DNA from: Gemmatimonadales bacterium
GTDB taxonomy: Bacteria > Gemmatimonadota > Glassbacteria > GWA2-58-10
Length of the DNA stretch: 64,000 bases
Assembly: GCA_024278175.1 (NCBI GenBank)
Contig: JAJRTS010000070.1
Span: forward strand, 62,001-126,000
Direction: 5' to 3'
The notes below the pieces were generated by a model. It did no database searches and was not told where the DNA came from. It saw only the letters and a program-made list of their open reading frames with translations. This document shows, one piece after another, positions 45,360 to 62,698 of the stretch (its first letter is position 1; every line of letters starts with the position of its first letter). Both the position numbers and the translations under genes were made by a program.

Positions 45360-45422
45360 CGCATCATCTCCAATCGGGGTATGCTTAAAAGCGCGTTGAA
45401 ATATTCAAAAGCATGAGCATCT

Positions 45423-45593
45423 GGTTGTCAAGGGCCGTTTCCCGCCAGGCCAGCCCAAAACGGCGCAAACGGTTCAACTGATTGACATAACACAAGTAAC
45501 ATGACCGGCAAAAGAAACGGCTTGTTTTGCCCTTGACAACCAACAGCGCAAAATGTTTCATTTGCGGGCGTTGAACGTATTATTTCAACGCCC
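45423..45593 (+). repeat. Dispersed inverted-repeat element, family R1, copy A
   Basis: A 119-bp unit (45423-45541) has perfect 13-bp terminal inverted repeats, GGTTGTCAAGGGC and GCCCTTGACAACC, with inner CCGTTT/AAACGG arms. A second hairpin, GGGCGTTGAA / TTCAACGCCC (45566-45593), follows. A second copy lies at 60110-60282 in the same orientation. The element sits inside the efflux operon between tolC and the adaptor gene, antisense to them. No open frame is seen in it. Confidence 0.85.
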
Positions 45594-45622
45594 CTTTAAA
45601 CGGCGCTTAATTACACAAATAA

Positions 45623-60000: not shown

Positions 60001-60109
60001 GTCTTTTGCCGGTGCCGGGTTTGGCCGGATTGATTTCCAGGCTGATAAATGCTATTTCAAATTCAAGTTCTAAAAGCGGATTGAAAAATTAAGAAAGTAT
60101 GGACGTCTG

Positions 60110-60282
60110 GTTGTCAAGGGCCGTTTCTCGCCAGGCCAGCCCAAAACGGTGCGAGCGACGCAACTGATTGGTATAACATAAGTAATAGGATTGATAAAAG
60201 AAACGGCTTGCTTTGCCCTTGACAAGCAACGGGGCAAAACTTTTCACTCAAGGGCGTTGAGAGTATTATTCCAACTCCCCTC
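60110..60282 (+). repeat. Dispersed inverted-repeat element, family R1, copy B
   Basis: The 119-bp unit (60110-60228) has ends GGTTGTCAAGGGC and GCCCTTGACAAGC and aligns without gaps to copy A (45423-45541), with about 18 differences by hand count. A downstream hairpin around GGGCGTTGA follows as in copy A. It occupies most of the spacer between pheS and pheT, which are usually adjacent or overlapping. Confidence 0.85.
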
Positions 60283-60301: not shown

Positions 60302-62698
60302 ATGGATGTCAGTTACAACTGGCTCAAATCACTGATCGATTTCGAGATCGAACCTCACGAGCTTGCCGAGCGCCTTACGATGAGCGGCCATGCTGTCGAG
60401 GAAATGCAGCGCCTGGGCGAGGGCCTCGATGACGTGGTGGTCGCCCGCGTGGTGAGCCTGCGCCCGCACCCCAACGCCGATCGCCTGCGTCTGGCCCAGG
60501 TGGACTACGGCGCGCAAGCCACCGTGGAGGTAGTCTGCGGAGCACCCAACGTGGCCGAGGGCGGCGCCTACCCGCTGGCTCCGGAGGGGGCCGTGCTGAG
60601 CGGTGGATTTAAAATCAAAAAAGCAAAAATCAGGGGTGTGGAAAGCCGCGGGATGCTTTGTAGCCGGCGGGAGCTGGGGCTCAGTGAGGAGGCCTCGGGG
60701 TTGATGGAGCTAAGCGGCTCGCTTGCGCCGGGCACTCCGCTGGCCGAAGCCCTGGGGCTCGACGACTGGCGACTGACCCTGGAGATCACCGCCAACCGGG
60801 GCGACATGTGGAGCCTGGTGGGCGCCGCGCGCGAGATTCAGCCCTTTTGCGGCAACAAGCTGCGGCTTCCTCCCGCGGAGCCGGAGGAGACCGGCCCCGC
60901 GGTGGATACGCTTACTTCCGTTACGCTCGATGACCCCCAGGGCTGCCCGCGCTACATGGCGCGCGTGGTAACCGGGGTCAGGGTCGGCCCCTCGCCCGGG
61001 TGGCTGGTGAGCCGGCTGGAGTCGGTGGGCCAGCGCAGTATCAACAACGTGGTCGATATTACCAACTTTATCCTGCTGGAGCTGGGTCAGCCCCTGCACG
61101 CGTTCGACCTGGACAAGCTGGACGGGAACCGGATCGTGGTGCGCCGCGCCCGCGAGGGCGAGAAAATCCAGACCCTGGACGGCGTGTAGCGCACCCTGGA
61201 GCAGTCGATGACCGTGATCGCCGATGCGGCCAGGCCGGTGGCCGTGGCCGGCGTGATGGGCGATCTGCCGACAGAAGTCGGTAACAGCACCACCAGGGTG
61301 TTGCTTGAGTGCGCCTATTTCGATCCATCGACAAATCGTGCCACGGCCCGCAAGCTGGGGATGTTCACCGAGGCCAGCCGGCGCTTCGAGCGGGGAGTGG
61401 ATTTCGCGCTGCTGCCCTACGCTCTCGACCGCGCGGCCCGGCTGATCGCCGAAGTGTCCGGGGGGGCGGTGGCCGGCGGAGTAATCGACCTTTGTCCCCG
61501 GGAGCTGGCGGCGGCGCCAGTGAGACTTCGCGCCGCGCGCGTGGAGCGGGTGCTGGGTATTTCTTTATCGGCCGAGCAGATAACCGAACTGCTGGAATCG
61601 GTGGACTTTGAAATGGACAAGGCCAGTGAGGATGTGTTCTCTGTAACCGTTCCCAGTTGCCGGGTGCTGGACGTGACCCGCGAGGTGGACCTGATCGAGG
61701 AGTTGGCACGGCTCTACGGTTACAATAAAATCCCCGTACCCGCCCGCATGGCGGTGTCCATGCAGGGCGCGGGCCGCGGTAACCATCACTGGGAGAGCGT
61801 GATCCGTTCCCGGCTGGCCGGGATGGGGTTCCGCGAGGCGATGACCACCACGTTCACCGCCTCGGAAAAAGTGAGCAAAATATTCGGCCCCCGCCGGTTC
61901 GAGCCGGTCAGGTTCGCCATGCCGATGTCAGCCGAGACGGACGTGCTGCGGCCTAGCCTGCTGGTGACCCTGCTGGAGTGTGTAAAGCATAATATCAACC
62001 AGCGCCATCTGGATTTGATGCTGTTCGAGATCGGCAACGCGTTCGCACGCACACCGGGTTCGGACGGCAGCGGGGAAACCAGGCGGCTGGCGCTGGCCGT
62101 AAGTGGCCGCACGCGGCCCGTGCACTGGAGCGGCGAGGCCGCCCGCTGGGATTTCTTCGCGCTCAAGGGTGTGCTCGAGACCCTGTTCTCCCACTTTCAC
62201 TTGCCGGCCCCGGCGTTCGAGCCGGGAGGGGACAGGCTGTTTTTCGAAGCCCGTAGCGCGGTTATCAGGATGGACGGAAAAAAAATCGGTCAGCTCGGCC
62301 TGCTCGATCCCTCGCTGGCCCGTGGGCTCGATCTCGACGAGCAGGAAATCTATCTGCTGGAAGTCGATCTGGAGCCGCTGGTGAAGGCCACGGACATGCC
62401 GTCTTACAAACCCGGCTCCGCGTATCCGGCGATCCGCCGCGACATGTCGATCCTGGTCGACCTGGGCGTACCGGCCGCGGATTTGATCGCCGAGATCGGC
62501 TCGCAGAGCAACCTCGTGCGCGATGTCTGTGTGTTCGACCTCTACATGGGTGAGCACGTGCCGGAGGGCAAGTGCAGCCTGGCGCTCTCGATCGTGTTTC
62601 AGAGCGGCGAGCGGACGCTCAAGGACGAGGAGGCGGACAGTTTATTTGAGAATATTTTCGGCCGTCTGGTCAAAAAATTTGGTGTCCAGCCCCGTTGA
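60302..62698 (+). CDS. pheT: Phenylalanyl-tRNA synthetase beta subunit, interrupted by an in-frame TAG
   Basis: Beta subunit of about 798 codons, the normal family length. Domain order is complete: B1 and the EMAP-like tRNA-binding domain (DVVVARVVSLRPHPNADRLRLA), B3/B4 editing region, B5 (ARVERVLGISLSAEQI), catalytic-like core, and C-terminal anticodon-binding FDX-ACB domain (YPAIRRDMSILVDLGVPA). Codon 296 (61187-61189) is TAG within IQTLDGV-stop-RTLE, where homologues such as Thermus PheT (from memory) have Glu in TLDGVERTL. The frame continues intact to TGA at 62698. pheT is essential and no second copy is seen, so readthrough, suppression or a base error is more likely than gene death. 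Confidence 0.92.

Follow-up and report, generated by a model that had tools for sequence, protein, structure and literature searches.

The window that we analysed, a 64,000-nucleotide stretch from the 4.18-Mb genome of an uncultured Candidatus Glassbacteria bacterium (a MAG), holds two copies of a repeat, both located inside operons. One of them separates pheS from pheT, with the two genes and the repeat all on the plus strand. The other lies, likewise on the plus strand, in an RND efflux operon that is encoded on the minus strand (TetR, OEP, HlyD-type adaptor, RND pump), where it sits between the OEP (TolC-like) and the HlyD-type adaptor genes and is antisense to both. An earlier note on this DNA had described these contexts, one sense and one antisense, as we find them, and had recognized in the two copies a stretch of 119 bp that aligns without gaps and possesses inverted ends. 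These 119 bp are the core of the element and not its entirety. Homology continues for about 35 bp to the left and 54 bp to the right, and both the alignment and the position of the target-site duplication (TSD) give an element of 207-208 bp and thereby rule out the 119 bp as the mobile unit (Table 1). The core in the efflux operon lies exactly where it had been placed, while that between pheS and pheT starts one base further to the left, at 60109 and not at 60110. The hairpin noticed behind each core exists as well; it is not a separate structure and represents the right end of the element.

Table 1. Features of the two element copies in the window (positions count from the first letter of the window).
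Feature	Position	Strand	Basis
Left TSD CTAA, pheS-pheT copy	60070-60073	.	sequence; family-wide 4-bp TSD statistics
Whole element between pheS and pheT, 208 bp	60074-60281	+	genome-copy alignment, TSD boundaries, same-genus spacer without element
Left terminal inverted repeat, pheS-pheT copy: AAGCGGATTGAAAAAT; family MAGCGTGTTGAAAWAT	60074-60089	+	
Core with 19-bp inverted arms, pheS-pheT copy	60109-60227	+	arm pairing in 97.9% of cells, 48 copies
Right-end hairpin and right terminal inverted repeat, pheS-pheT copy: TTATTCCAACTCCCCT; family TTATTTCAACGCCCCT	60252-60281	+	
Right flank CTAT, pheS-pheT copy; 3 of 4 bases as in left CTAA	60282-60285	.	sequence
Left TSD TTAA, efflux-operon copy	45385-45388	.	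sequence
Whole element, efflux operon, 207 bp	45389-45595	+	alignment, TSD
Core with inverted arms, efflux-operon copy	45423-45541	+	
Right-end hairpin and right terminal inverted repeat, efflux-operon copy	45566-45595	+	
Right TSD TTAA, efflux-operon copy, same as left	45596-45599	.	sequence

Downstream of the first of these loci, the pheT gene contains an in-frame TAG (window positions 61187-61189, plus strand); the open frames beginning at 60302 and 61208 constitute a single pheT reading frame that is split between ...TLDGV and RTLEQSM. The stop could be a strain variant or stem from an error of assembly, or pheT, an essential gene, could truly be interrupted by a nonsense mutation in this MAG.

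The anatomy of the family follows from the consensus of 90 copies that are unique and full-length; as cut by the profile, most of them measure 203-207 bp. From left to right, the element consists of a left terminal inverted repeat (TIR; MAGCGTGTTGAAAWAT), a left shell of about 20 bp, the left arm GGYTGTCAAGGGCCGTTYC, a variable interior of about 71 bp, the right arm GRAACGGCTTGYCTTGCCCTTGACARCC, a right shell of about 20 bp, and the hairpin GGGCGTTGAAYGTNTTATTTCAACGCCCCT, which ends in TTTCAACGCCCCT and provides the right TIR with its 3' half. The TIRs (MAGCGTGTTGAAAWAT versus AGGGGCGTTGAAATAA) are imperfect inverted repeats with the same 7-nt offset to TTGAAA. The length of the core is nearly constant: 77 of the 85 copies scored in this genome have cores of 118-121 bp, and 53 of 59 from the related genome G003, where only copies with an intact right arm had been admitted, have one of 120 bp. 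With its 207-208 bp, the element is too short to accommodate a transposase gene.

Several derivatives of this layout came to light. A right-end variant, GGGCGCC(C/T)C, replaces TTTCAACGCCCC in four copies (L058, L095, L105, L119). Short palindromes made of the terminal repeats, TCTAGAAGCGTGTTGAAAAAACACGCTTCTAA and TTTAGAGGGGCGTTGAGAGTATTATTTCAACGCCCCTCTAAA, are present at L104 (C3:6951), L107 (C26:18209) and L110 (C84:101), and further ones at L068 (C31:219-252), L080 (C76:15204-15237), C72:6697-6730 and L083 (C90:71266); those on C72 and C76 are the right ends of full copies, and some others stand alone, perhaps as minimal forms derived from the family. Elements with similar ends and unrelated interiors of about 130-145 bp (L066, C23:15794; L077, C56:44911; L106, C7:68291) are probably sister MITE families that use the same mobilizing enzyme.

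A BLAST-type search of the genome recovered 40 substantial copies with identities of 77-100%, and the pattern TTGTCAAGGGC-N70-100-GCCCTTGACAA occurs at 66 exact sites but at none in the reversed control, which rules out a chance repeat. While the earlier note knew of two copies, a covariance model trained on 48 copies detects at least 137 in this genome. Among relatives of the same family, it finds at least 105 in G003, 11 in G001, a member of the same genus, and three in G002; G004 and G005 from the same family yielded none, nor did seven other genomes of the phylum. Searching 60 relatives with BLAST gave a distribution in line with these counts. An exact 26-base pattern, searched among 84,980 named species genomes (a set that possibly does not include the genome of the window), was found only in Candidatus Glassbacteria Zod_Metabat.976, and the element is absent from the plasmid, phage and viral-contig collections that we searched. 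Some copies at different sites are nearly identical; L006 and L010 even have the same core.

Two other observations concern the surroundings of the copies. Four contig ends (L027, C40:131; L088, C112; L110, C84:101; L119, C103:208) share the left flank ACCACGCACATAG, which is followed by different element variants; either these ends belong to a longer repeat, or the assembly branched here over a mixture of strains. In the relatives, a second repeat family with the core TCCCCGCAGC-TTGCTGCGGGGA (L151, L166 and L191 in G003) replaces the right end of some elements, and fragments related to it lie between pheS and pheT in both G003 and G002 (L223, L224).

The flanks of the copies bear the marks of transposition. 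Exact matches of 4 bp between the two flanks were found for 24 of 66 copies in the genome under study, against 7.5 expected, and for 14 of 35 copies in G003, against 2.9 expected; in neither genome did any of 2000 shuffles reach the observed value, and match lengths other than 4 bp showed no significant excess. The duplicated target has the consensus YTAR and bounds the element at its outer ends; a duplication of 5 bp was superseded by one of 4 bp plus a terminal T after more copies had been scored. An empty site is available in the same genus: the pheS-pheT spacer measures 301 bp here and 85 bp in G001, which lacks the element at this position and whose pheS is 84% identical, and subtraction of the element and one TSD copy from the spacer studied here leaves 89 bp. 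The corresponding spacers of G002-G004 contain no copy either. Insertions avoid genes, as judged from gene calls by a simple hexamer model: merely 1 of 46 reconstructed empty sites in this genome and 3 of 37 in G003 fall inside a called gene, versus 73-76% of random points. In L017, L032, L054 and L010, elements adjoin the end of another one with only one site of YTAR type between them (CAACGCCCC-TCTAA-AAGCGTG), which suggests insertion into or beside earlier copies.

TIRs and TSDs demonstrate that the element is mobile. The MITE-like nature that the earlier note had envisaged is borne out by the high copy number, the TIRs, the 4-bp YTAR duplication in two genomes, the empty site of a relative and the intergenic insertions. 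We therefore interpret the two copies in the window, with a probability of roughly 90%, as MITEs of about 208 bp that were moved by a DDE transposase supplied in trans into YTAR targets and that persist as tolerated intergenic insertions. Such an enzyme would recognize the TIRs MAGCGTGTTGAAAWAT and AGGGGCGTTGAAATAA, excise or copy the element, and join it into a YTAR target whose 4 bp would be duplicated in the process. Intergenic insertions would then remain through purifying selection; the pheS-pheT and efflux-operon copies would be insertions at such tolerated sites, and any effect on the expression of their neighbors would be a by-product.

A clue to the enzyme that might have mobilized the family comes from this genome itself, where C76:58022-59037 holds the remnant of an IS5-family element. 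This remnant encodes DUF772 and DDE domains, and its best match is NCBIfam transpos_IS5_4, below the curated cut-off. Its TIR is GAGACCTTTGAAATAWWCG, and its two ends, GAGACCTTTGAAATATACG and GAGACCTTTGAAATAATCG, both share the motif TTGAAATAWWCG with the left end of the element in the same register; this motif has no occurrence in the other transposase loci or in the window. The inner half of the TIR is hence common to the remnant and the element, while the outer 7 bp differ, and the remnant's own duplication is AACTC, not YTAR. For IS5 elements, YTAR has been reported as the TSD (PMC10359306). The family resembles IS5-type insertion sequences in this 4-bp duplication and in the inner motif shared with the remnant, and departs from them in lacking an internal transposase gene and in the outer part of its TIR. 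Both likenesses suggest an IS5-type transposase as the putative mobilizing enzyme. A full-length transposon sharing the ends of the element, as the earlier note had contemplated, did not turn up. These ends are missing from all DDE_Tnp_1 loci examined in this genome and in G001-G003 and from all DUF772 loci examined in this genome, and there are no DDE_5 transposases. The autonomous partner is therefore a putative one; it may be extinct, and the MAG is incomplete. Our literature search found no paper that joins MITEs, the IS5 family and YTAR, and, to judge by their titles and abstracts, the Glassbacteria papers that it listed do not deal with repeats.

Palindromic ends, a variable interior and an intergenic location would also befit a REPIN-type repeat moved by a RAYT (Y1) transposase. 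Y1 transposition leaves no TSD. The 4-bp duplication and the TIR-type outer ends of the element point instead to a DDE transposase, and we deem a REPIN origin extremely unlikely. A tempting alternative, raised by the earlier note as an RNA element, is a structured RNA, a riboregulator or attenuator in the pheS-pheT and efflux mRNAs whose arms and second hairpin set the balance of downstream expression (pheS/pheT or tolC/adaptor). The covariation sought in the arms is indeed seen: pairs form in 97.9% of cells across 48 copies, and two-sided, compensatory changes at 3 of 19 pairs amount to 16 cells versus 4.1 in shuffles, so that, given the further copies, neither of the two refuting outcomes named in the earlier note holds. 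Palindromic DNA arms would produce such covariation equally well, however. The minus strand of one window copy folds stably (z -3.2), but for the plus strand of the pheS-pheT copy the fold is not more stable than that of shuffled sequences (z -1.05), and the pheS-pheT spacers of relatives lack the element. Copies between co-directional genes are 23 times in sense and 28 times in antisense orientation (15 and 12 in this genome, 8 and 16 in G003), so that there is no strand bias. The window has no Rfam match at the gathering threshold; a terminator search found none in the pheS-pheT copy and, in the efflux-operon copy, one weak match on the minus strand, at the rate of the shuffled background. 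Neither window copy contains a sigma-70-like site that would use the TTGACA of the arms for an outward promoter. Mobility and strand symmetry speak for a mobile DNA element and against an RNA that has to be read in one sense. We rejected the RNA element on its strand symmetry and consider it very improbable; there is no sign that the window copies regulate the pheS-pheT or the efflux operon.

An unexpected feature is that modules are shuffled between the copies. Distances in the thirds of the interior correlate at 0.44-0.45 with each other and at 0.13-0.25 with the shells, with bootstrap intervals that exclude zero, and L013 and L023 differ by 1.4% in the core and 0% in the right shell versus 57% in the left shell. 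Near-identical cores with unrelated left shells, and interior thirds that go together better than with their shells, could be taken to mean that the 119-bp core moves as a cassette of its own, swapped through site-specific recombination at its inverted arms, within an outer part that represents an older host element. Yet none of 145 distinct cores stands without shells, except those cut at contig ends or with an altered right end, which speaks against a stand-alone cassette; nor did we find an inverted core (11 flagged rows were correctly oriented elements with a mis-scored shell direction), which speaks against inversion of the arms by a recombinase. Moreover, it is the outer ends that the TSD flanks, and the shuffling is explained by gene conversion in the arms, which form the longest stretch of identity. 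A mobile cassette is accordingly hardly credible, and the simplest account of the shuffling is recombination or gene conversion between MITE copies that switch inside the conserved arms.

The conservation of these arms is a second unexpected feature. The major-base frequency reaches 0.95 and 0.92 in the arms, 0.86 and 0.85 in the TIRs and 0.75 in the interior, and the arms hardly vary even among copies whose other parts differ by 25-40%. That the arms are better kept than the TIRs counts against a bare TIR-driven MITE, which needs no such arms. One might therefore suppose that the element is of mobile origin and that its arms are now selected in place, as sites for host proteins or as mRNA-processing hairpins, to serve as dispersed regulatory sites; near-invariant arms and a core of 118-121 bp in most copies agree with this. 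The relevant evidence comes from pairs of copies. Among older pairs, the arms diverge more slowly than the interior, and in pairs chosen by total distance the arm-to-interior ratio is about 0.4 even when they are very close, as selection in place would have it. In the pairs closest by interior, on the other hand, divergence is equal (5/335 in the arms versus 8/495 in the interior, p = 1; 28/709 versus 51/1060, p = 0.42, in further such pairs), a result that this choice of pairs itself favors. Equal divergence fits a constraint on the mobile source lineage, with inserted copies decaying neutrally. Since strand bias is lacking as well, we regard selection in place as unlikely. Somewhat speculative, and doubtful in our eyes, is an extension of the MITE reading in which the element has three modules: the invariant arms would be a second functional signal, for instance a site for synapsis or a hairpin that transposition needs, their spacing of about 119-120 bp would be a mechanical necessity, and each transposition could combine left shell, core and right shell anew at the arms. 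If true, this would imply a mode of transposition not described for IS5-type MITEs.

Prokaryotic MITEs have been reviewed, among them the Correia element of Neisseria, which is 204 bp long and occurs more than 120 times in N. gonorrhoeae (PMC10969869). The Glassbacteria element shares with them a length below 500 bp, TIRs, direct repeats that fade with age, an intergenic location, a non-coding nature and palindromic transcripts (PMC10969869). It differs from Correia and other MITEs in having no sequence match in the collections searched, in its YTAR duplication, in a near-constant core with inverted arms that is better conserved than the TIRs, and in having been seen here in one family of Glassbacteria only. 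The BrickBuilt MITE of Porphyromonas gingivalis likewise has an internal repeated structure, which there is a minisatellite, whereas the interior here is a single core with inverted arms (PMC4596501).

Collectively, the element is a new non-autonomous MITE family, and a large one, from an uncultivated Candidatus Glassbacteria bacterium, with no match to a curated RNA family. The tempting idea of an RNA-based regulation of pheS/pheT is removed, as the evidence does not support it. Three traits are unusual: arms that are better conserved than the TIRs, a core whose length hardly varies, and the shuffling of modules among copies. This shuffled three-part structure with its conserved arms provides a natural data set for the question of what, beyond TIRs, the movement of a MITE needs.
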